From an uncultured Actinomycetes bacterium (GTDB lineage Bacteria > Actinomycetota > Acidimicrobiia > Acidimicrobiales > Ilumatobacteraceae), in NCBI GenBank assembly GCA_937876415.1, contig CALEHE010000229.1, forward strand, positions 1-43,808: a DNA stretch of 43,808 nucleotides, in the 5' to 3' direction. Made by a program: the position numbers and the translations under genes. Shown here piece by piece: positions 1,512 through 27,194 of this stretch (the stretch's first letter is position 1; each line of letters opens with the position of its first letter). The notes under the pieces were generated by a model. The model had not been told where the DNA came from. It ran no database searches and saw nothing but the letters and a program-made list of their open reading frames with translations.

Positions 1512-2625
1512 TAGGGGCCTCCCTTAAGGCAGCGAGACCGGGCAGGTCGCCAAGTTCAAGTAATTCAAGTGACGCTCCACCGCCGGTAGACACGTGATCT
1601 ACCTGATCATCAAAACCGAATTCAGCCAAAGCAGCAGCAGAGTCTCCGCCACCTACAACTGTGAAGGCCTTTGTATCGGCCATTGCTTGAGCGACTGTTC
1701 GAGTGCCTCCTGCGAAACGCTCATCTTCAAACATGCCCATCGGGCCATTCCAGAACACAGTTCGTGCTTCCATAATGATGTCAGTAAAGGCAGCTGCCGA
1801 GCCTGGACCAATGTCAAAACCTTTGGCTCCGGCTGGCAAACGGCGGCCATACGTGGCGTAGTTTCCATCAGCATCAAGACCGATGATGTCATCAGGTAAA
1901 TGAATTGCCTTACCGAGTGAGAGCAAGCGCTTACAGGTATCAACCTGATCAGGTTCAAAAAGTGAATCGCCAATTGAATATCCCTGTGCCGCCAAGAATG
2001 TGAAGCACATAGCACCTCCGATGACCAGCGAGTCAACCACATTAAGTAGCGCTTCTACGACACCGAGTTTGTCGGAAATTTTGGAACCACCCAATACGGC
2101 GACAAACGGATGCTTCGGGCTCTCGCGCAATGTCAGAAGTACTTCCACTTCTTTTTGCAACAACCGTCCCATCGCCGATGGAAGAGTTTTAGGTGGGCCA
2201 ACGATCGAAGCATGTGCCCGATGTGCCGCCCCGAAAGCGTCGTCAACATACATGTCAACGCCAGTGATAAGTTCAGCCACAAATTCAGGATCATTCTTCT
2301 CTTCGCCAGCATTGAAACGAAGATTTTCAAGCAACTCAACACCAGGTGCAAGTTCAGATAGTCGCTGAACGACTGGATTCATGGAGTACTTTGGCTCGAT
2401 TGCACCTTTGGGTCGTCCGAGGTGACTGATACAAACAACTGATGCGCCCCGTTCGGTCAACCAATTAATAGTGGGCAATGCCGCGCGAATACGAAAATCA
2501 TCGGTGATTATTTGAGTTCCGTCCGATGCGGTTTCCATCGGTACGTTGAAATCTGTCCGTACCAGAACTCGCTTACCGGCAACATCGCCGAGGTCTTCAA
2601 GAGTTGGAATACTTCTACTCATCAT
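1501..2625 (-). CDS. pgk: phosphoglycerate kinase
   Basis: Catalyses phosphoryl transfer between 1,3-bisphosphoglycerate and ADP in the cytosol. Family motifs seen are RVLVRTDFNVP near the N-terminus, SHLGRP, LENLRF, the hinge/nucleotide region LGGSKISDKLGV, the FWNGPMGMFE motif and the glycine-rich GGGDSAAA...STGGGASLE end. With 374 residues it is slightly shorter than the usual 390-400, but no conserved block is missing. In-frame TTG, ATG and ATG codons occur in a row at 2628, 2625 and 2622; the first ATG is used here, nine bases after the gap stop codon. No strong ribosome site distinguishes them. Operon position is between gap and tpiA. Confidence 0.96.
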   Translation of the reverse strand: MMSRSIPTLEDLGDVAGKRVLVRTDFNVPMETASDGTQIITDDFRIRAALPTINWLTERGASVVCISHLGRPKGAIEPKYSMNPVVQRLSELAPGVELLENLRFNAGEEKNDPEFVAELITGVDMYVDDAFGAAHRAHASIVGPPKTLPSAMGRLLQKEVEVLLTLRESPKHPFVAVLGGSKISDKLGVVEALLNVVDSLVIGGAMCFTFLAAQGYSIGDSLFEPDQVDTCKRLLSLGKAIHLPDDIIGLDADGNYATYGRRLPAGAKGFDIGPGSAAAFTDIIMEARTVFWNGPMGMFEDERFAGGTRTVAQAMADTKAFTVVGGGDSAAALAEFGFDDQVDHVSTGGGASLELLELGDLPGLAALREAPNAR

Positions 2626-2634
2626 CAACGCTAA

Positions 2635-3778
<1,144 letters not shown>

Positions 3779-3798
3779 AAAAGACCCCACTCAGGGTC
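3779..3798 (-). terminator. intrinsic terminator after rapZ
   Basis: On the minus strand a 5-bp GACCC/GGGTC stem (3783-3787 with 3794-3798, 6-base loop) is followed by four U residues. It starts five bases after the rapZ stop and separates the rapZ operon from gap. Confidence 0.6.
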
Positions 3799-3802
3799 GG
3801 GC

Positions 3803-4648
3803 TTATCGGGTGATATCTCGGTGTGACACCCGAACCGGTTGTCCCGACAAACGTAGCCGCCTACCTACTTCTTCGGCCACGGCCACCGAACGATGGTGAC
3901 CGCCGGTGCAGCCAATGGCGATCGTGAGATAACTCTTTCCTTCGGCGGCGTAATGAGGCAGAACGGTTTCGAGAAGACTCACGAGACCCAGCAAAAAACT
4001 CGAACACTCCTCACGATCCAAAACGAATTCACGGACTTGATGATCTAAACCTGTGAGTGCCCGCAGTCCTTCCTCCCAATGTGGGTTTGGCAAGAAGCGA
4101 ACATCCATCACGATGTCGGCATCAAGAGGCAACCCATGCTTGAAGCCAAAGGACTCAACCGAAACTTGCAAACGTTCAAGTGCCGAAACCTCAAAAGCTC
4201 CTACCAATTTTGACTTCAGTTGGTGTACGTTCAACTCAGTTGTGTCGATCACCAGGTCGCAGTCACCCTTCATTGGTTCTAGGAGACGACGTTCAAGTTG
4301 GATTGACTCCAACAATCCACTGGTTTCTCCGTCGAGAGGATGCCGACGCCGAGACGATTCGTATCGCTTAATGAGTTCAGCGTCCGACGCATCTAAATAG
4401 ATCACTCGCACTTGATGTCCGCTCGCTCGCATCGCCGCAACTTTGGGCATTAATTCGAGATGTTGCCGACCAGCGACCAACGCCAAGCGTTCAATTTCTG
4501 ATCCAGGGACACTCGCCAGATCAACAATAGTGTCGACCAACGAAGTAGGGAGGTTGTCAACGACATACCAACCAAGATCTTCCAAAACAGCCGCGGTGGC
4601 GGAACGACCCGCTCCAGAAAGTCCGGTGATCACCAAAATGTCTGCCAC
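3803..4648 (-). CDS. rapZ: RapZ/YvcJ family nucleotide-binding protein
   Basis: P-loop protein of the RapZ (YvcJ) family. In E. coli RapZ is the RNase E adaptor for GlmZ and controls GlmS; in Gram-positive bacteria the role is less clear. Walker A GLSGAGRS is at residues 9-16, followed by the conserved YVVDNLP. The C-terminal domain carries the highly conserved IGCTGGHHRSV. At 281 residues the length is normal. The start is GTG, two bases after the stop of the LLM oxidoreductase gene, so rapZ is the third gene of a methyltransferase-LLM-rapZ operon. This is unusual: in most actinobacteria rapZ sits between uvrC and yvcK-whiA. A terminator follows. Confidence 0.93.
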   Translation of the reverse strand: MADILVITGLSGAGRSATAAVLEDLGWYVVDNLPTSLVDTIVDLASVPGSEIERLALVAGRQHLELMPKVAAMRASGHQVRVIYLDASDAELIKRYESSRRRHPLDGETSGLLESIQLERRLLEPMKGDCDLVIDTTELNVHQLKSKLVGAFEVSALERLQVSVESFGFKHGLPLDADIVMDVRFLPNPHWEEGLRALTGLDHQVREFVLDREECSSFLLGLVSLLETVLPHYAAEGKSYLTIAIGCTGGHHRSVAVAEEVGRRLRLSGQPVRVSHRDITR

Positions 4649-4650
4649 GA

Positions 4651-5427
4651 CTACAAACTACCCATCATTCGGTCGCGCTCAGAGATCATTGCTGAGATGA
4701 TCTCGAGATCGAAAGTCTTATCTTGGTTCGGTCGAAGACTACGAATCACATGCCGGGCCCCAGCTTCGAAGTATTTGCCGAGATCATTCTCAAGATCAAG
4801 AGGGGTCAGCAACACACTGAGTTCCAAATTATGTTGAATCAAATGAACGGCTTTCGCTGCGAAGCCAGATGGCGGACCAAATCCGTTCCATCCGTCTGCG
4901 TACTTCACCGCCAATGGAATTGTGACCCGTTCGCCAGATCCCCCAACCCAAATTGAAATGTCAGTTCCCAATTGAGCGTTCAACCGACCGACCTCAAAGC
5001 ACAGAACTTGCAATCTTCGATCAAATAATTTCATCCGACTCACCAAGTCTCTGGGTGCATCAGTCAGTCGGTCGTCATATTCAAAGCCACCTGCTCCGAC
5101 TCCAAGGATGAATGACCCATTCCCCAGGAGCGCGATGGTCGCCGCTGAGCGGGCCAAAACTGCAGGCTCACGAATTGACAACGGAGACACAAGAACGCCC
5201 AACTGGTTAATGCGACCATTAAACAGTGGCGCAACCGAGCCGAGAAGCGACCAGGTGTCCCAGGCAACATCGTCTTGTTTTCCTGTGAAAGGTACTAAGT
5301 GATCCCACAGAAAAACAGAGTCAACTCCGATCCCGAGGGCGCTTTTCACGATCTTGTAATACTCAGGTGGTGCAACCTCGTGCGTCTGAAGTTGCACCCC
5401 GATTTTTAATGCCGAATTGTTAGACAT
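4651..5427 (-). CDS. LLM-class (luciferase-like) flavin/F420-dependent oxidoreductase
   Basis: TIM-barrel oxidoreductase of the bacterial luciferase-like superfamily, which in actinobacteria mostly uses coenzyme F420. Seen are the N-terminal strand LKIGVQLQTH, the SVFLWDHL motif, the SPLSIREPAVLARSAATI core segment, LGVGAGGFEYD and the later IWVGGSGERV...YADGWNGFG pattern. At 258 residues it is shorter than the usual 290-320, with the shortening in the insertion and C-terminal regions. It overlaps the preceding methyltransferase by eight bases and ends two bases before rapZ, so all three are probably one transcript. The substrate cannot be inferred, and F420 rather than FMN use is an inference from the subfamily. 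Confidence 0.8.
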   Translation of the reverse strand: MSNNSALKIGVQLQTHEVAPPEYYKIVKSALGIGVDSVFLWDHLVPFTGKQDDVAWDTWSLLGSVAPLFNGRINQLGVLVSPLSIREPAVLARSAATIALLGNGSFILGVGAGGFEYDDRLTDAPRDLVSRMKLFDRRLQVLCFEVGRLNAQLGTDISIWVGGSGERVTIPLAVKYADGWNGFGPPSGFAAKAVHLIQHNLELSVLLTPLDLENDLGKYFEAGARHVIRSLRPNQDKTFDLEIISAMISERDRMMGSL

Positions 5428-6178
5428 CTAATTTCACTGAACGTAAGTACAGCAGCCTCGGAATCGTCGATGCATCTTCATATTCGGCGGCGCGAGCGAG
5501 AAATCCAGGAGGAGGAGCGGGTTCGAGCATGCGTTGCACGTACAAACCATTTTCGATAAGAGCGTTTACGTATCGGCTCAACGGACGATGGATAAACGGA
5601 ATGAAAATATCCTTTTCCACCTCTTCATTCGATTCCTGTTCAATGAGATACGGCCCGATACGCCAGTATTGTTCGGGCGGATCAAGTATTTGATCATCTA
5701 TCCAACCACTACCCGGCGTTTGGAGTAGCGGATGATTTAAGAAGAAACAGAAGCGACCTCCTGGTCGAAGAACGCGGGCTACTTCAGATATAGCGGTGTC
5801 AACATCTTGAATGTGTTCAAACACTAGGCAAGCCACAACAGCATCAAAAGTTTCATCAAAGAATGGAAGTCCATCAGCGCCGGCTTTAGTGACGTGAAGT
5901 CCACCACCGCGTTCCGCCGCTACCGTCACCTGATTCCATGTTGGGTCAATGCCTGCTACGAAGCCTGCACCCAGCCTCTTCACCAAGCGCGAAACTTGAC
6001 CATCTCCGCAACCCACATCGAGAACCTGATCCATACCGAGAAGTTCTTCGGCCGCCAGAGGCAAGATTTGTTCTTCGTACTCGGCATCGGCTCCGTCGGT
6101 AAACCCGTCAATCCACCATTGAGCGTTGTCTTCCCACAAGTTGTTTTCGTTGGGGCTGATTGAAGAATTACTAGTCAC
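5420..6178 (-). CDS. class I SAM-dependent methyltransferase (UbiE/Methyltransf_11-like)
   Basis: Rossmann-fold methyltransferase of 252 residues. Motif I VLDVGCGDGQVSRLV is at about residues 53-67, the acidic strand end GIDPTWNQ follows, then motif post-II/III (DETFDAVVACLVFEHIQD) and the IxEVARVLRPGGRFCFF signature typical of UbiE-like enzymes. The acceptor substrate is not predictable. The start is GTG 6176-6178: a TAACCT element sits exactly six bases upstream, indicating a leaderless transcript. It is the first gene of the operon with the LLM oxidoreductase and rapZ, and divergent from a second LLM gene at 6212. A second, unrelated methyltransferase lies at 18125. Confidence 0.85.
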   Translation of the reverse strand: MTSNSSISPNENNLWEDNAQWWIDGFTDGADAEYEEQILPLAAEELLGMDQVLDVGCGDGQVSRLVKRLGAGFVAGIDPTWNQVTVAAERGGGLHVTKAGADGLPFFDETFDAVVACLVFEHIQDVDTAISEVARVLRPGGRFCFFLNHPLLQTPGSGWIDDQILDPPEQYWRIGPYLIEQESNEEVEKDIFIPFIHRPLSRYVNALIENGLYVQRMLEPAPPPGFLARAAEYEDASTIPRLLYLRSVKLDV

Positions 6179-6184
6179 TCTGCG

Positions 6185-6205
6185 AGGTTACGACACGACT
6201 ACCCT
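6185..6205. promoter_or_regulatory. divergent leaderless promoters (two -10 elements)
   Basis: Two TANNNT elements face away from each other in 33 bases of intergenic DNA. TAACCT on the minus strand (6185-6190) is six bases from the methyltransferase GTG. TACCCT on the plus strand (6200-6205) is six bases from the LLM GTG at 6212. The two promoters must overlap upstream, which would make their use mutually dependent. Confidence 0.5.
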
Positions 6206-6211
6206 TTGGCG

Positions 6212-7144
6212 GTGACCACGAATACAAAAACCAACGTCAAATTCTCTGTCTGGCCTTCTCCTGAAAGGTCGTGGAACGATGTTCGCTCTCTCGCAACTTA
6301 TGCCGATACAACCGGTTGGCATTGTCTCTGGTACGCCGACCACTTCATGCCCAATGATGAATCATCAGTGACGAAAGATGGCGACGTCTTCGAATGCTGG
6401 AGCATGATTTCGGCGATCGCTGCGATCACACAACAACTTCGAATCGGCTCGCTCGTCTCGCCAACGACCTTTCGCCACCCCACAGTTTTAGCGAACACAG
6501 CGGCGACGATTGATCAAATCTCCGACGGTCGTCTCACCCTCGGAGTAGGTGCCGGTTGGCAAGTCAATGAACATTTGGCGTACGGCGTAGATCTGCTTGA
6601 AGGCAAAGACCGTGTTGATCGATTTGAAGAAGCTATTCAAATAGTTGCGTCTATGCTGCGCAACGATCGAACCGACTTTGCCGGCAAACACTTCTCAATC
6701 GTTGATGCCCCGTGCCAACCTTGTCCAGTGCAAGAGCCGCTTCCGATCATGGTTGGTACTGGTGGACCGCGAATGTCGAAGATCACTGCGAGGTTCGCTG
6801 ATGAATGGAACACGTGGGGGCACGTTTCTACTGCAACAGAACGAGTTGCAACTTTCGCTCAAGCGTGTCAAAAGGTGGATCGGGACTGGAATGACATCCA
6901 CAAATCGGTTCAGGCAATGTTCTTTCTCGTTGACGATCAAGACACCATTGAAAAGATTCGCAAGGTTGCCCCGAACGACCGATCAATCATTGGATCAAAC
7001 GAATACATCATTGACCAGATTGGACAACTCATCGGACTTGGTTTTGATGAGATCATCTTCCCCGACTTCACCTTGGGTAAAGATGCGCAGACCCGACTTG
7101 ATAGTTACGAAAAGATTCGGACCGAGATTCTGAATCACTTCTAA
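6212..7144 (+). CDS. LLM-class F420-dependent oxidoreductase
   Basis: TIM-barrel enzyme of 310 residues in the luciferase-like F420 family. Recognisable are WHCLWYADHFMP near the N-terminus, the LRIGSLVSPTTFRHPTVLA strand-helix, SDGRLTLGVGAGW, the E(A/E)IQIVASMLR helix and IMVGTGGPRMSKITARFADEWN. Substrate unknown; families with this shape include dehydrogenases and reductases acting on diverse secondary metabolites. A TTG at 6206 is also in frame, but GTG 6212 lies six bases from a TACCCT -10 element, the spacing seen for several other genes here, so GTG is chosen. Divergent from the methyltransferase-LLM-rapZ operon and convergent with uvrC. Confidence 0.83.
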   Translation: MTTNTKTNVKFSVWPSPERSWNDVRSLATYADTTGWHCLWYADHFMPNDESSVTKDGDVFECWSMISAIAAITQQLRIGSLVSPTTFRHPTVLANTAATIDQISDGRLTLGVGAGWQVNEHLAYGVDLLEGKDRVDRFEEAIQIVASMLRNDRTDFAGKHFSIVDAPCQPCPVQEPLPIMVGTGGPRMSKITARFADEWNTWGHVSTATERVATFAQACQKVDRDWNDIHKSVQAMFFLVDDQDTIEKIRKVAPNDRSIIGSNEYIIDQIGQLIGLGFDEIIFPDFTLGKDAQTRLDSYEKIRTEILNHF

Positions 7145-7159
7145 TTTGCGAATCACATT

Positions 7160-9046
7160 TTACGGAGTGTGAAACTTATTGAAGATCGCTTGTGCAACGT
7201 CTTCTGGCAACCACGTTTGCGCTTGTAATTCTTCTAGAGAAGCTTTTTTCACCGCATTCACTCCACCAAATGCCTTGATGATCTTCTTTTTTCTTGCTTC
7301 TCCTAGTCCTGCAATACCGTCTAAAGCGCTCGAGACCATTCTTTTGTCACGTAACTCGCGATGAAATGAATTCGCAAATCGGTGCGCTTCATCACGAATA
7401 CGTTGAAGCATAAATAGGGCGTCACTACCCCGTGGAACTTCCACTGGATCAGATTGACCCGGAATGAAAACCTCTTCAAACCGTTTGGCCAATGAAGCGA
7501 CCGGGATTTCATGATCTAAACCGAGATTCTTCAACACTCGTTCGGCCACCGCTAGTTGGCCTTTGCCACCGTCAACAAGGAGTAGTTGAGGAGGATAAAC
7601 GAACTTCTTGGATCGTGGCTTTTGTTGTTGGGTCAACTCATCAGTCTCAATCGGTTGCTCGCGCTCCTCTATGTACGCGGTAAAACGTCGCGTCAATACC
7701 TCCTCCATAGCGGCATAGTCATCGTTACCGGGCACCTCTTTCACCTTGAAACGACGGTACTCTCGCTTGGCTGGCAGGCCATCTTCAAGCACCACCATCG
7801 AACCGACGTAATCAGTGCCTTGCAAATGCGCCATGTCATAACACTCAATACGCAATGGTGCCTCGGGAAGTCCCAAGAGATCTTGCAGTTCAGTTAATGC
7901 CCGACTCCGAGCATTGTGATCCGCCGACCGCTTCATTCGATGGCGAACAAATTCCTCACTAGCGTTCCGAGTTACTAACTCGTGTAGTTCTCGTTTGTCT
8001 CCACGTTGCGGAATACGAATTTCAACTTTAGAACCTCGTTGGAAACTCAACCATTCTTCATATGTCGCTATGGCTATCGGCAAATCAGGAACTAAGACCA
8101 TCTTCGGAACGCCTAAAACTGGCTCATCGCCGTACAACGACTCAATGATACGATCAATCAAACCTGATTGAGATAAGTCTTCAACTTTGTCAAGAATGAA
8201 GCCCTTGCGCCCAACAACGCGACCCTTTCGAACATAAAAGATTTGAATCGCTGCTTCAAGCTCGTCTTGAGCGATGCCAATCAGATCTAAGTCTTCACTC
8301 TTTTCGCCGACTATCTGTTGCTTCTCAATCGCCTTCGCCACCGACTGCAACCGGTCACGAAGTCGGGCTGCTTTTTCATATTCAAGGGCTGCAGCAGCCT
8401 TATTCATATCATCTTGTAGTTTTGCGACGACTTCATCAGTGTCGCCGTCAAGAAAGTCACAAAACTCTTTTACCAGTCCTGCATAAGCATCGGCCGATAC
8501 CTCGCCGACGCAGGGTCCGCTGCACTTCTCGATATGAAACAGCAAACATGGGCGACCCAATTTATTGTGCTGATTGAATTTTCCAGGACTGCACGTCCTA
8601 ATCGGAAAGGTGCGCAACAACAGATCAAGAGTGTCACGAATCGCGTATGCATGCGGATACGGACCAAAATATCGTGTTCCTTTGCGAGTACGCCCTCGCA
8701 TCACTACTGCGCGAGGCCATTGCTCATCTGTTGTCACGGCCAAAAACGGATAACTCTTGTCATCGCGTAATCGAACGTTGAACCGCGGATGATGTTGTTT
8801 AATCAGACTGAACTCAAGAATGAGAGCCTCTACCTCATTGCGTACAGTCATCCATTCAACAGTCTCCGCAGTGGCGACCATCTGGGCAGTGCGCGGATGC
8901 AACTGCGAAGGATCCTGAAAATAGTTTGATAAACGCTGGCGCAAGTTTGATGCTTTGCCAACGTAAATGACCCGACCGTGGACATCCTTAAATTGGTATG
9001 AACCGGGTAGCTCTGGAATCGTTCCAGCAGGTGGTCGAGCAACCAT
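7160..9046 (-). CDS. uvrC: excinuclease ABC subunit C
   Basis: Dual-incision nuclease of nucleotide excision repair; receives the UvrB-DNA complex. The GIY-YIG N-terminal domain is visible (PGSYQFKDVHGRVIYVGKA, residues 14-32), then the Cys-rich segment (CLLFHIEKCSGPCVG), the UVR domain that binds UvrB (EYEKAARLRDRLQ, about 218-230), the RNase H-like 5' nuclease domain (IECYDMAHLQGTDYVGSMV ... LLLVDGGKGQL) and tandem helix-hairpin-helix at the C-terminus (LDGIAGLGEARKKKII). Length 628 residues, normal. It starts 24 bases after uvrA and so probably belongs to the same minus-strand transcript. Its stop lies 15 bases from the convergent LLM gene. Confidence 0.97.
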   Translation of the reverse strand: MVARPPAGTIPELPGSYQFKDVHGRVIYVGKASNLRQRLSNYFQDPSQLHPRTAQMVATAETVEWMTVRNEVEALILEFSLIKQHHPRFNVRLRDDKSYPFLAVTTDEQWPRAVVMRGRTRKGTRYFGPYPHAYAIRDTLDLLLRTFPIRTCSPGKFNQHNKLGRPCLLFHIEKCSGPCVGEVSADAYAGLVKEFCDFLDGDTDEVVAKLQDDMNKAAAALEYEKAARLRDRLQSVAKAIEKQQIVGEKSEDLDLIGIAQDELEAAIQIFYVRKGRVVGRKGFILDKVEDLSQSGLIDRIIESLYGDEPVLGVPKMVLVPDLPIAIATYEEWLSFQRGSKVEIRIPQRGDKRELHELVTRNASEEFVRHRMKRSADHNARSRALTELQDLLGLPEAPLRIECYDMAHLQGTDYVGSMVVLEDGLPAKREYRRFKVKEVPGNDDYAAMEEVLTRRFTAYIEEREQPIETDELTQQQKPRSKKFVYPPQLLLVDGGKGQLAVAERVLKNLGLDHEIPVASLAKRFEEVFIPGQSDPVEVPRGSDALFMLQRIRDEAHRFANSFHRELRDKRMVSSALDGIAGLGEARKKKIIKAFGGVNAVKKASLEELQAQTWLPEDVAQAIFNKFHTP

Positions 9047-22570: not shown

Positions 22571-22578
22571 GATTGTCG

Positions 22579-22651
22579 TGCCCCGGGTGGGATTTGAACC
22601 CACACCGTACGGAGTTTGAGACCGCTGCCTCTGCCGTTGGGCTACCGGGGC
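22579..22651 (-). tRNA. tRNA with anticodon CAA (reads UUG, Leu) and a short variable loop
   Basis: A 73-nt class I cloverleaf. The acceptor stem is GCCCCGG/CCGGGGC with discriminator A73; the T arm is GTGGG-TTCAAAT-CCCAC; the D arm has G10-C25, C11-G24 and C12-G23; U8, A15-U48 and U33 are in place. Counting from G1, the anticodon loop CTCAAAC puts CAA at 34-36, which formally makes this tRNA-Leu. Yet the variable loop has only five bases, whereas canonical tRNA-Leu carries a long extra arm. The anticodon stem is weak (G27-U43 and a U31-U39 mismatch). The 3' CCA is not encoded. Charging identity is therefore uncertain. Confidence 0.88.
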
Positions 22652-22765: not shown

Positions 22766-23941
22766 GTGCTGGCATTTACCTTTCCGGGTCAAGGATCACA
22801 GCGTCCAGGTATGGGTCGCCCGTGGACCGAACATGATTCTTGGGATCTCGTTGAAGAAGCCTCCGATGTTTCAGGACGCGACGTCGGTCGTCTCTTACTC
22901 GATGCTGATGCAGAAGAACTCAAAGACACTCGTAACGCTCAGCTCACAACATTTGTTTCAAGCTTGATGGTGCTAGACGCAGTAGAACGTCTCGGAGTCG
23001 AACCAAGTTTTTGCGCGGGTCACAGTTTGGGTGAATACACGGCTTTAACAGCAACTGGAGCACTTGGCTTCGATGACGGGGTACGTCTGGTCGTTGAGCG
23101 AGCCGAGGCCATGCATGAAGCAGGGCAAAACAATCCCGGAACCATGTCAGCAATCTTGGGTCTCGATGATGAGCTGGTTGAAGTTGCTTGCCGTCGGGCC
23201 GATAGCGATGTGTGGGTCGCTAATTTCAATGCTCCTGGACAGATCGTGATCGCCGGTTCAGCCGAAGGCGTCGCTCGAGCAGTTGAGATCGCCAAAGAGC
23301 TCGGTGCAAAAAAGGCAATGTCACTACCGGTATCTGGTGCTTTCCATACTCCGTTCATGACACCGGCTCGTGAGCGATTACGAGTAGCCATTGGTGCCGC
23401 TCAACCTCGTGATACCGAAGTTCCGATCGTGAGCAACGTTGATGCCATCGCTCACGACCATGGCGACGAATGGACCAGTCTGTTATCGGCTCAACTATCC
23501 AGCCCAGTGCGATGGAAGCAATGTTTGCTCACGCTTGCTGATTTGGGTGTCACTGGGCTCGCAGAACTTGGTCCAGGTGGGGTTCTCACTGGAATGGCCA
23601 AGCGAACCCTTGAGGGCGTCCGAACAATCTCCGTCGCCACACCCGACGAACTCGACAAATTCATTGAATGGGTCAACAACGCCGCCCCTACTGGACTGCA
23701 ACAGCATGAAGGCGAACATCTATTTGCCGTCGAGCGTTTGGTGGTCAGTCCGGCTTCTGGTGTCTTCATTCCGATAGCGACAATACAAGCAGGAGATCGC
23801 ATCTCAATCGGACAGTCCTTGGGCAGTATCGGTGACACTCCCGTTGTATCCGTCTTCGAAGGAATCCTTCAATCATTTATTGCGGTCGAAGGTGAGCGCG
23901 TGACACTTCGCCAGCCCATCGCCTGGCTTAGGACGATTTAA
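22766..23941 (+). CDS. fabD: malonyl-CoA:ACP transacylase with C-terminal biotinyl/lipoyl-like domain
   Basis: Loads malonate from CoA onto acyl carrier protein for fatty acid elongation. Residues 1-305 are a normal FabD: FTFPGQGSQ (4-12), active-site Ser87 in GHSLGEY, the conserved Arg in VVERAEAMHEAG, and the catalytic His in SGAFHTPFM. An 86-residue extension follows (306-391), with the Gly-spaced repeating pattern of a biotinyl/lipoyl hammerhead barrel (SPASGVFIPI...GDRISIGQ...SVFEGIL...GERVTLRQPIAWL). The loop that normally carries the modified Lys (EAMKM-like) reads IGDTPVVS and contains no Lys. Start GTG 22766 begins directly with the conserved core. First gene of fabD-fabH-fabG-acpP-fabF; fabH follows after one base. 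Confidence 0.93.
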   Translation: MLAFTFPGQGSQRPGMGRPWTEHDSWDLVEEASDVSGRDVGRLLLDADAEELKDTRNAQLTTFVSSLMVLDAVERLGVEPSFCAGHSLGEYTALTATGALGFDDGVRLVVERAEAMHEAGQNNPGTMSAILGLDDELVEVACRRADSDVWVANFNAPGQIVIAGSAEGVARAVEIAKELGAKKAMSLPVSGAFHTPFMTPARERLRVAIGAAQPRDTEVPIVSNVDAIAHDHGDEWTSLLSAQLSSPVRWKQCLLTLADLGVTGLAELGPGGVLTGMAKRTLEGVRTISVATPDELDKFIEWVNNAAPTGLQQHEGEHLFAVERLVVSPASGVFIPIATIQAGDRISIGQSLGSIGDTPVVSVFEGILQSFIAVEGERVTLRQPIAWLRTI

Positions 23942-23942
23942 C

Positions 23943-24893
23943 ATGCCGGCAACTCCACCCGGAATTCGTGGCGCGGTGATTACTGGTTGGGCCAGCGCGC
24001 TTCCTCCAAAAGTTGTCACTAACGATGACCTCAGCCAGACTCTCGAAACTTCCGACGAATGGATTCGCGAGCGCAGCGGAATCTCCGAACGTCACATCGG
24101 AGGTAGTACTGCCGAACTCAGCATCCAGTCGGCCTCGGCGGCTCTCGAAATGGCGGGAATTGATCCGTTAGAAATTGATGCTCTGGTGCTCTCAACCACG
24201 ACCCCAGATCGTTGTGTACCCGCAACGTCGGCCACCGTCCAGCATGCGCTTGGATTGAAGTGTGGTGCGTTTGATGTCAATGCCGCGTGTAGCGGTTTCG
24301 TGTATTCGCTCACTGTTGCTCATGGACTCATCGCCATGGGATCCAACAAAGTTCTCGTCATCGGTACTGACACACTGTCGCGAATCACCGACTGGTCAGA
24401 CCGCAATACTGCTGTGCTCTTCGCTGACGGATCAGGCGCAGTGGTTCTTGAAGCAGTCCACGGGCCTGGCCAAATGTTGGCTTGGGATATTGATGCCGAC
24501 GGTTCGGCAGAAGATGCCCTCTACGCCGATCTTGGTGGGTTTATCAAGATGGAGGGCAAAGAAGTATTCCGACGTGCCGTGCGCATCATGGTAGATAGCG
24601 CCCAGAAATCTCTTGCTGCTGCTGGTTTAACATCAGCCGATATTGATGTGGTTATTCCTCATCAAGCCAATATCCGCATTATCCAATCAGCTTGTGAGCG
24701 ATTAGAAATTCCCATTGAAAAAGCGGCGATCGTTTTGCAATTCACTGGCAATACATCATCGGCCTCCATTCCGCTAGCACTTGTTCATGCTGCTGAAACT
24801 GGTTTGCTCAAAAAGGGCGACACGGTTTTATTGGTTGGATTTGGTGCCGGAATGACGGCAGCGAGCGCGATCATTAAGTGGGAGGGTCGCTAA
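23943..24893 (+). CDS. fabH: beta-ketoacyl-ACP synthase III
   Basis: Initiating condensing enzyme joining an acyl-CoA primer with malonyl-ACP. Catalytic triad seen: Cys116 in DVNAACSGFVYS, His in IPHQANIRI and Asn in FTGNTSSASIPLAL. The GFGAGMTAASAIIKW end is typical. At 316 residues the length is normal. ATG one base after the fabD stop. Primer preference (straight or branched) cannot be read from the sequence. Confidence 0.96.
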   Translation: MPATPPGIRGAVITGWASALPPKVVTNDDLSQTLETSDEWIRERSGISERHIGGSTAELSIQSASAALEMAGIDPLEIDALVLSTTTPDRCVPATSATVQHALGLKCGAFDVNAACSGFVYSLTVAHGLIAMGSNKVLVIGTDTLSRITDWSDRNTAVLFADGSGAVVLEAVHGPGQMLAWDIDADGSAEDALYADLGGFIKMEGKEVFRRAVRIMVDSAQKSLAAAGLTSADIDVVIPHQANIRIIQSACERLEIPIEKAAIVLQFTGNTSSASIPLALVHAAETGLLKKGDTVLLVGFGAGMTAASAIIKWEGR

Positions 24894-25627
24894 TGCCCGA
24901 AGATTCATCGATGCCTCAATCAAGCGGTCGAGTAGTTCTGATCACTGGCGGATCACGCGGTATCGGGCTCGCAACTGCTCAAAGGTTTGCCGCACTTGGA
25001 GACCGCGTTGCAGTGACATACAATTCCAGCGAACCACCCGACGGATTCTTTGCGGTCAAATGTGATGTCACCAGTTCAGTTGAAGTTGATGCCGCGTTTA
25101 CCGCTATTGAAAAGCATTTTGGTCCGGTTGAAATTTTGGTATCCAATGCCGGAATGACTAAAGACATGTTGATACTTCGCATGTCTGAATCCGATTTCGC
25201 AGATGTTATTGATGCCAACCTGACTGCGGCATATCGCGTTGCGAAACGTGCTGCGCAAGGAATGTTGAAAGCCCGTAGAGGTCGAATGATTTTCGTCAGC
25301 AGCGTTGTTGGCATGCTTGGTTCGGCGGGACAGGCCAATTATTCCGCATCAAAATCGGGACTCATTGGTCTCACCCGTTCGATCGCCCGAGAACTGGGTA
25401 GTCGAACAATCACTGCCAACGTCGTCGCACCAGGTCCTGTTGCAACAGACATGTTGGCTGCACTGTCTGAGGATCGAGTTTCGGCGTTAACCGACGCCGT
25501 TCCGTTGGGACGCCTCGCAAGTCCCGAAGAAATAGCGGGAACAATTGTGTTCCTCGCATCCCCCGACGCTGCATACATCACCGGTGCAGTGATTCCAGTT
25601 GACGGTGGGCTTGGTATGGGTCATTAG
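24893..25627 (+). CDS. fabG: 3-oxoacyl-ACP reductase
   Basis: NADPH-dependent short-chain dehydrogenase reducing beta-ketoacyl-ACP. Motifs: TGGSRGIG (cofactor), SNAGMTKD (NAG), Ser of VSSVVGMLGSAGQANYSASK and the catalytic YxxxK (YSASK). The C-terminus ends GAVIPVDGGLGMGH. The ATG at 24893 shares one base with the fabH stop and has a strong GGAGGG ribosome site at 24881-24886, so it is preferred over the upstream GTG at 24878. The last codons and stop form the first copy of a tandem repeat that continues beyond the gene. 244 residues. Confidence 0.96.
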   Translation: MPEDSSMPQSSGRVVLITGGSRGIGLATAQRFAALGDRVAVTYNSSEPPDGFFAVKCDVTSSVEVDAAFTAIEKHFGPVEILVSNAGMTKDMLILRMSESDFADVIDANLTAAYRVAKRAAQGMLKARRGRMIFVSSVVGMLGSAGQANYSASKSGLIGLTRSIARELGSRTITANVVAPGPVATDMLAALSEDRVSALTDAVPLGRLASPEEIAGTIVFLASPDAAYITGAVIPVDGGLGMGH

Positions 25628-25779: not shown

Positions 25780-26019
25780 ATGAATGAAGAACTTTTCGCC
25801 CGCTTTCGCAAGTGCGCAGTTGATGTTTTGAGCGTCGATGCCGACAAAGTCACCCTTGAGGCTTCATTTGGTGATGACCTCGATGCCGACAGCCTTGATC
25901 TCGTGGAACTCGTGATGGCACTTGAAGAAGAATTCAATGTTGAAGTTCCAGAGAGTGAAATTGAAGACGTCAAGACGGTCGGCCAGGCCTACAACCTGAT
26001 TGTTGGAAAGCTCTCCTGA
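25780..26019 (+). CDS. acpP: acyl carrier protein
   Basis: A 79-residue carrier protein; Ser38 in DDLDADSLDLVEL is the 4'-phosphopantetheine site, followed by the conserved acidic helix II (VMALEEEFNVEVPESEIEDVKTV). It carries the growing acyl chain through FabD, FabH, FabG, FabF and FabZ. A strong ribosome site AAAGGAG (25766-25772) seven bases upstream fixes the ATG, in keeping with high expression. It is separated from fabG by the tandem repeat and shares one base with fabF. Confidence 0.97.
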   Translation: MNEELFARFRKCAVDVLSVDADKVTLEASFGDDLDADSLDLVELVMALEEEFNVEVPESEIEDVKTVGQAYNLIVGKLS

Positions 26020-27194
26020 TGTTAGGACGCCGAGTTGCCATCACGGGTCTCGGCGTCGTTGCCCCATGTGGCGTTGGTCAGGAGAACTTTTGGTCGGGAT
26101 TGTTAGGTCCCGGAATCACCTCTGGCAAATGGGTCACCATTGCTGATTGGGATCCTCTTCCGTGGTTTAACAACAATGCCAAAGAGGCCCGTCGCGCTGA
26201 CCGTGTTGAACAGTTCGCGGTGGCTGCGGCAGCCGAGGCGATGGCTCAAGCCGGTGAACTCGGCGTTGACCCGACTCGTTTTGGAGTAATACTCGGAACG
26301 GGTATCGGTGGACTCGGAACTCTTGAAGAGCAGATTCAGATTCGACTAGAAAAAGGCGAGCGACGTGTTTCTCCGTTTCTTGTCCCCATGATGATGGCGA
26401 ACGCTTCAGGTGCTGCCATTTCGATGAAGTATGGCCTTCAGGGTCCGAACGAAACAATCAGCACCGCTTGTGCGGCCTCAACCCACGCGTTGGGTTATGC
26501 AGCGCGACTCATTGCCATGGGTCGCTGCGATGCCATCGTCAGTGGCGGCACTGAAGCCGCCGCTACCCCATCATCATTGGCTGGTTTTAACAACATGACT
26601 GCACTGTCATCAACTGGCCAAAGTCGTCCGTTCGATCGCGATCGCGATGGCTTCGTAATGGGCGAGGGCGCAGGAATTTTTGTACTCGAGGCTTGGGACC
26701 ATGCCGTTACTCGTGGGGCAACAATATTGGGCGAAATATTGGGATCAGCCAGTAACGCCGATGCCCACCACATCACAGCTCCGTCACCAGGGGGCCGTGG
26801 TGCAATCAATTGCATGCGACTCGCCTTAGACGAAGCTGGACTCACTCATGAATCGATTGTGTACGTCAATGCTCACGGAACTTCAACTCCTTTGAATGAC
26901 GCCGCCGAGGCTGCCGCGATGGCAACTGTGTTTCCTCATCGACCAGCCGTCACCAGTATCAAAGGAGTAACCGGCCATGCCTTAGGCGCAGCCGGTGCCC
27001 TTGAGGCCGCATCCGTCCTGTTGTCATTCCAACATAAATTGATTCCCGCCACCGCTGGCACAGTCCACTTAGATGATGACGTCAACATTGATGTCGTGAT
27101 GGGAACGGCGCGTGAGTGGAAACCCGGACCCACAATTTCGAATAACTTCGGTTTCGGCGGACACAACGGATCTTTGATTGTGGCGCCCGCCTGA
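26019..27194 (+). CDS. fabF: beta-ketoacyl-ACP synthase II
   Basis: Elongating condensing enzyme. Catalytic Cys in STACAASTHALG, first His in VNAHGTSTPLND and second His in IKGVTGHALGAAG; the NNFGFGGHNGSLIV end is typical. Starts MLGRRVAITGLGVVAPCG in a one-base overlap with acpP. At 391 residues it is slightly shorter than the usual 410, mainly in loops. Last gene of the operon and convergent with fabZ. Confidence 0.96.
   Translation: MLGRRVAITGLGVVAPCGVGQENFWSGLLGPGITSGKWVTIADWDPLPWFNNNAKEARRADRVEQFAVAAAAEAMAQAGELGVDPTRFGVILGTGIGGLGTLEEQIQIRLEKGERRVSPFLVPMMMANASGAAISMKYGLQGPNETISTACAASTHALGYAARLIAMGRCDAIVSGGTEAAATPSSLAGFNNMTALSSTGQSRPFDRDRDGFVMGEGAGIFVLEAWDHAVTRGATILGEILGSASNADAHHITAPSPGGRGAINCMRLALDEAGLTHESIVYVNAHGTSTPLNDAAEAAAMATVFPHRPAVTSIKGVTGHALGAAGALEAASVLLSFQHKLIPATAGTVHLDDDVNIDVVMGTAREWKPGPTISNNFGFGGHNGSLIVAPA

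Follow-up and report, generated by a model that had tools for sequence, protein, structure and literature searches.

For fatty-acid synthesis, the committed step is malonyl-CoA supply, and the coupling between the carboxylase and FabD in bacteria is, to our knowledge, unsettled. In plants, BADC proteins are non-biotinylated relatives of BCCP that bind BC as well as BCCP and assist or restrain the plastid acetyl-CoA carboxylase, and a 2025 paper, in the part of its text that is accessible, calls such non-biotinylated relatives unique to the plant enzyme (PMC11926652). For actinobacteria, the available portion of another source describes AccE, the epsilon subunits of acyl-CoA carboxylases, as non-catalytic partners (PMC13118682), and an excerpt of a third states that the classical carboxylase is missing from most Actinobacteria (PMC3199775).

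The window analyzed here is a 43.8-kb stretch (43,808 nucleotides) from an uncultured bacterium of the order Acidimicrobiales, in which the fabD frame runs on, without a stop, into a C-terminal module (Table 1). We take the genes that follow to be fabH, fabG and fabF from their sequences, and the gene with the DSLDLVELV motif is presumably that of the acyl carrier protein (acp). A tRNA-Leu (caa) gene lies directly upstream of fabD on the minus strand (22578-22651). Scanning the operon for promoters and terminators gave 6 and 7 sites; these numbers are close to the averages for shuffled sequence (3.7 and 5.8), and we gave them no weight.

Table 1. Features of the fused fabD gene and its operon (positions in the window)
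Feature	Positions	Strand	Remarks
Fused fabD-module frame	22766-23941	+	one open frame, 391 residues
FabD (malonyl-CoA:ACP transacylase) domain	22766..23680	+	residues 1-305, GTG start; motifs GHSLGEY, AFHTP
Tail	23681-23941	+	in frame with fabD; residues 306-391 and stop
Variable linker	23672..23707	+	residues 303-314, overlaps FabD end; predicted disordered from residue 308
Conserved strap	23708..23740	+	residues 315-325, motif GExLxxxER
Biotinyl-type barrel (putative pseudo-BCCP)	23741..23932	+	residues 326-389
Shortened hairpin IGDTPVVS	23828..23851	+	residues 355-362, place where EAMKM would lie
Conserved end strand GERVTLRQPIAWLR	23891..23932	+	residues 376-389; contains invariant Trp
fabH (presumed)	23943..24893	+	next operon gene; ATG one base past stop of fabD-module frame; relatives at related loci
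fabG (presumed)	24878..25627	+	relatives at related loci
Acyl carrier protein gene (presumed)	25780..26019	+	DSLDLVELV motif
fabF (presumed)	26019..27194	+	frame read in window

The first-pass annotation had read this protein as a normal FabD of 305 residues followed by a biotinyl-type barrel without the modifiable lysine, and each part of that reading held. Residues 2-282 score 283.3 bits against the NCBIfam fabD equivalog TIGR00128, over its cut-off of 260.9, and the full-length model superposes on E. coli FabD (1mla) at 1.4 A over 306 columns; by this score and this fold the protein is a FabD. H86, S87 and H194, which together with the two motifs we take to be the catalytic residues, are at least 90% conserved. 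Compared with the FabD of TIGR00128, the first 305 residues, the catalytic motifs and the place in the operon are the same, and the difference is the additional 86-residue module.

The tail modeled with AlphaFold2 from 48 relatives (alignment A1) has six strands and a mean pLDDT of 92.9. The top match of this model among solved structures was Pyrococcus BCCP with Foldseek (E 4.7e-6) and E. coli BCCP with VIA-align 2 (Z 11.9, 1.1 A over 67 residues). All three analyses give a barrel-sandwich biotinyl fold for residues 306-391, and no other fold emerged. Fold alone is insufficient to call the tail a BCCP, because HlyD-type adaptors follow close behind (Z about 10) and the NCBIfam matches of the window tail, weak as they are, are headed by YqeB (TIGR03309; E 5.6e-5, 22.7 bits against a cut-off of 220). 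These barrel-sandwich hybrids differ from the module in gene context, and the YqeB match is far below its cut-off. Homology at the sequence level was seen with the family profile and not with the window tail by itself, which has no Pfam match, to PF00364 or otherwise, at E up to 10. The profile finds BCCP among solved structures (PDB 2d5d, E 1.4e-5), and 37 of the 48 family members match PF00364 at E <=1, the best at 3.7e-6. Consequently, we base the BCCP assignment on the profile ranking against solved structures and on gene context.

What sets the module apart from a working carrier is its biotin site. The 86-residue tail holds no lysine and no cysteine, and the loop that should carry EAMKM reads IGDTPVVS, as the first-pass annotation had stated. 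The two carriers of the same genome retain EAMKM and ESMKM, with both lysines in one column of the profile alignment, and the module hairpin is four columns shorter than theirs; loop and hairpin are shortened in the fused forms. Among 172 distinct profile-matched sequences (193 frames), that column holds a gap in 111, glycine in 33, another letter in 25 and lysine in 3. These three (L194 with EVMK, L195 with EALK and L206 with EAMK) look like true BCCPs. TIGR00531 also matches at the places of L194 and L206, with the score at L206 over the cut-off, and L195 adjoins a biotin carboxylase. Seven further profile matches of the 172 have a lysine no more than four columns from the site, scattered and not conserved. 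With no lysine in the tail and 3 of 172 at the column, the module does not class as an ExMKM-lysine biotinyl domain. Read from its letters, it is unable to carry biotin at the usual place. We also considered a lipoyl domain and rejected it, since the tail has no hairpin lysine to lipoylate.

Between FabD and the barrel lies a linker and then a short strap that is better conserved than either domain, with a mean entropy of 0.93 bits against 1.11 for FabD (residues 1-300), 1.44 for the barrel and 2.68 for the linker. All 31 fused rows agree at strap positions G316, E317, L319 and R324, and 29 of them at E323; in the mixed alignment A4 (32 rows) the counts are 22 for G316, 31 for E317, 22 for L319 and 30 each for E323 and R324. 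Residues 315-320 of this strap are nevertheless predicted to be disordered, and a conserved yet unfolded segment beside a carrier fold is what would be expected of a docking segment. The Trp of the end strand is invariant in both A1 (48 rows) and A4 (32 rows). In the full-length model (pTM 0.77), residues 308-320 have pLDDT below 50; a firm packing of the barrel on FabD was considered and finds no support in this model with its disordered linker. Constraint on the tail is weaker than on FabD. Uncorrected pN/pS of the tail is 0.10-0.35 in nine of ten pairs of the window gene and a relative, with pS near saturation in most of the ten, and 0.52, on few changes, in the closest pair (L088). The FabD part gives 0.04-0.13 across the ten pairs, so the tail ratio is about 2-4 times higher in nine of them and 6 times in L088.

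The module is widespread in the order. A hand tally of 99 order genomes gave 66 with the fusion (counting G028 and G068 as fused) and 14 with a separate module frame beside fabD. Two more (G007, G025) have the module away from fabD or on a different contig, two have a FabD with an unclear tail (G058, G086), two have FabD and no module that we found (G046, G074), in four (G008, G033, G042, G083) the sole matches are acyltransferase ones within long frames, and nine gave no match. The 14 separate frames were confirmed by reading; six (L040, L042, L046, L049, L050, L051) span 90-103 codons between stops, and the other eight sit in longer stop-to-stop frames. G028 (L026, L048) and G068 (L052, L055) each have both a fused copy and a split fabD and module pair. 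A set of 80 named loci was collected with patterns taken from fused tails; in 79 of them FabD and module share one frame, and the remaining one (L138) is truncated by the end of its contig. Metagenome-assembled genome records titled Bifidobacterium breve or Ferrithrix thermotolerans (L087, L092, L093 and others) have tails 64-98% identical to that of the window, and the Bifidobacterium titles look wrong. In G007 (L053, G007:C77) the module is followed by fabH, fabG and acp, and fabD is on another contig.

Beyond the order, a separate module frame beside fabD occurs in f66, a family of the same class, and outside the class in f67, f72, f73, f75, f99, f102, f107 and f110, mostly with fabH on the other side of the module; fusion to FabD outside the class occurs in f79 and f113. 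Because common biotin and lipoyl proteins match the module profile as well (it has matches in 126 of 296 genomes at E <=0.001 and in 89 of 149 at E <=1e-4), only matches fused with or beside fabD were counted. On this count, and by hand cross-matching, 33 of 149 phylum genomes have a module at FabD (13 fused, 20 adjacent), in 10 families; FabD itself was detected in 120 of the 149 at E <=1e-50. Two f75 genomes (G122, L192; G202, L191) and the f73 genome G105 have fabD and fabH without a detected module, whereas other f75 genomes have it. A weak module match in L185 (G123:C117, 1873-3435, minus strand) is flanked by genes for a DegT-type aminotransferase and a sulfotransferase, not by fab genes. 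The plasmid collection held no match to the tail. Conservation of the extension across the group is supported by these counts, and the outcome that the first-pass annotation had named as refuting, an extension in one genome only, did not appear. Since many relatives encode the module separately beside fabD, we regard it as a conserved part of the fatty-acid machinery.

How often the two genes were joined is less clear-cut. At least 4 changes of the fused state are required by a FabD tree of 100 rows, yet an AU test does not reject one clade of all fused rows (p 0.096). The fused rows of the order fall together, with one module-less paralogue (L056) among them, its split rows group with f66, and f113 (L170) sits on a long branch. 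Repeated independent fusion is suggested by this topology.

Carboxylase genes lie near the module in few of the stretches. In G181, G358 and G275 the operon runs module-fabH-acp-fabF-carboxyltransferase, with fabD adjoining this module-led operon on the opposite strand in G275. In G367 the module stands directly before a carboxyltransferase gene, and no fabD, fabH, fabG, acp or fabF match was found within 6 kb of it. In G175 (f81; L208, G175:C3:209000-222000), positions 2405-7767 hold an accA-like gene (below the accA cut-off), fabD, a biotin carboxylase, a BCCP-like frame and fabH. This BCCP-like frame before fabH keeps a lysine, in an unusual EALKHLNE in place of EAMKM, and the arrangement suggests where the module came from. 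A BLAST search for carboxyltransferase and biotin carboxylase had matches in 8 of 204 stretches (L007-L210; median length 5 kb), from the six genomes G367, G358, G181, G275, G175 and G233, and found neither gene in the 43.8-kb window. Elsewhere among the stretches, the identified neighbors of the module are fabD and fabH.

The first-pass annotation had asked whether the fusion tracks with carboxylase type, and across the 149 phylum genomes it does, albeit confounded by shared ancestry. None of the 33 genomes with a module at FabD, the window's included, has accA over its cut-off, compared with 59 of the 116 others; the Fisher p of 5e-9 overstates the case because related genomes are not independent, and the families of the 33 share none with the families that have accA over the cut-off. 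For accB over its cut-off the counts are 1 of 33 (G171) against 61 of 116. In 12 of the 33 there are accA matches that fall short of the cut-off, and these are probably carboxyltransferases. Two genomes with module-like frames away from fabD (G181, G123) were counted among the 116, and neither has accA over the cut-off. The f104 genomes with a carboxyltransferase-linked module (G275, G358, G367) are outside the 149-genome sample, and another f104 genome, G233, has accA. In the window genome, we read a BC-BCCP alpha subunit (L002) from sequence. A further frame of that genome (L004, G000:C15) reads as an apparent carboxyltransferase with a biotinyl domain (ESMKM) joined to its N-terminus.

Our leading hypothesis, which we offer tentatively and as somewhat short of probable, treats the tail as a pseudo-BCCP without catalytic activity: within actinobacterial type II fatty-acid synthesis it would serve as a docking module that binds acyl-CoA carboxylase and works like plant BADC. 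The first-pass annotation had likewise suggested docking or substrate channelling towards acetyl-CoA carboxylase or ACP, a role that is plausible. The biotinyl-type barrel would have lost its biotin hairpin, and barrel and strap would dock on a protein whose usual partners are biotinyl domains, most likely acyl-CoA carboxylase, through its biotin carboxylase or carboxyltransferase. Docking would then hold the producer of malonyl-CoA beside FabD, its user, in a working mode like that of the BADC proteins and with FabD physically attached in this order. The module would probably descend from an accB in the fab operon that could take on a different role after the alpha subunit of the carboxylase had incorporated BCCP. 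We counted in favor of docking the fold, the profile, the loss of the lysine, the link to fabD, the carboxyltransferase operons, the arrangements in G367 and G175, the absence of accA, the pN/pS of the tail and the BADC precedent. Against it we counted the rarity of carboxylase neighbors, the action of BADC in accA-type carboxylases, which are missing in these genomes, the weaker constraint on the tail than on FabD, and the limits of the accA exclusion, namely its confounding by ancestry, the 12 genomes with accA matches under the cut-off and the f104 genomes outside the sample. In Chloroflexus, according to the accessible text of one study, binding of BCCP to the carboxyltransferase depended on biotin (PMC11077971), and docking of a lysine-less barrel at the carboxyltransferase is disfavored for that reason.

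The main rival places the module within the FabD/FabH/ACP machinery, with strap and barrel binding ACP, FabH or a second FabD and thereby raising local concentration or holding the elongation enzymes together, with no carboxylase involved. We consider this rather unlikely. In its favor, FabD lies within 131 of the 193 module frames of the stretches (FabH within none), fabD and fabH flank the separate gene in several families, the module of G007 stays with fabH-fabG-acp when fabD is elsewhere, and carboxylase genes are near the module in few stretches. The disordered linker joining FabD and barrel in the model is likewise consistent with a tether, whereas the same model (pTM 0.77) gives no sign that the two pack firmly. 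We know of no ACP-binding role for the biotinyl-type fold, and the module of G367, before a carboxyltransferase and with no fab gene match in 6 kb, also fits this alternative poorly.

The module might instead sense a small molecule, such as acyl-CoA, acyl-ACP or biotin, and tune FabD accordingly. The strongly conserved end strand with its invariant Trp would suit such a sensor; however, the best conserved part includes a disordered peptide, which resembles a protein-binding motif, and no ligand pocket is known to us in biotinyl barrels, and we regard a sensor as improbable. We give an equally small chance to a relic, a former accB that was fused or left in the operon and is decaying without function. 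The missing biotin lysine, the shortened loop and hairpin of the fused forms, the weaker selection on the tail than on FabD and the lack of a module in some f75 genomes (G122, G202) are what decay would leave, but the module is kept with invariant positions in many families in and beyond the class, and pN/pS is well below 1 in nine of the ten pairs. A carrier modified at another residue, be it a displaced lysine, Ser or Cys, is very improbable: seven of the 172 profile matches carry a lysine near the site, at most four columns away, but these lysines are scattered and not conserved, and the window tail has neither lysine nor cysteine.

Carboxylase docking, the reading we prefer, invites comparison with three described systems. 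Relative to BCCP (AccB, PF00364, TIGR00531), the module shares the fold (Z 11.9 to E. coli BCCP), profile similarity and the two-half glycine pattern, and differs in lacking the biotinylation lysine, in its shorter hairpin, its GExLxxxER strap and its WLR end, and in being fused or adjacent to FabD. Like plant BADC, as the accessible part of its source describes that protein, it is a BCCP relative without the biotin motif and part of fatty-acid synthesis, a likeness by description; it differs in being bacterial, fused to FabD and with a partner that is only a candidate. Filing it as a BADC was considered and rejected, because BADC belongs to accA-type enzymes, the heteromeric accA/accD-type carboxylases, and accA is over the cut-off in 0 of the 33 genomes. 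AccE subunits are small, and the module resembles them, again by description only and as far as the available text on AccE goes, as a small non-catalytic partner in actinobacterial acyl-CoA carboxylation; unlike AccE, the pseudo-BCCP module lies by FabD. No title among the literature matches listed, in a search mostly confined to papers open without subscription, names a FabD-biotinyl fusion or a lysine-less BCCP module of fab operons. The fold and FabD are already known; a family of BCCPs without the lysine in the fab operons of bacteria, and its joining to FabD, appeared in none of those titles.

Extended from this protein to the whole family, the proposal becomes a little more doubtful. Pseudo-BCCPs in actinobacterial fab operons may tether or regulate acyl-CoA carboxylase as a bacterial counterpart of BADC, welded to FabD in this order, so that malonyl-CoA would be made and used in one assembly. 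If true, such a bacterial family would widen the idea of the non-biotinylated BCCP beyond plants. A conserved, catalytically silent protein of carrier fold at the malonyl-CoA step, fused to FabD in one large group, offers a concrete handle on how carboxylase and FabD are coupled.
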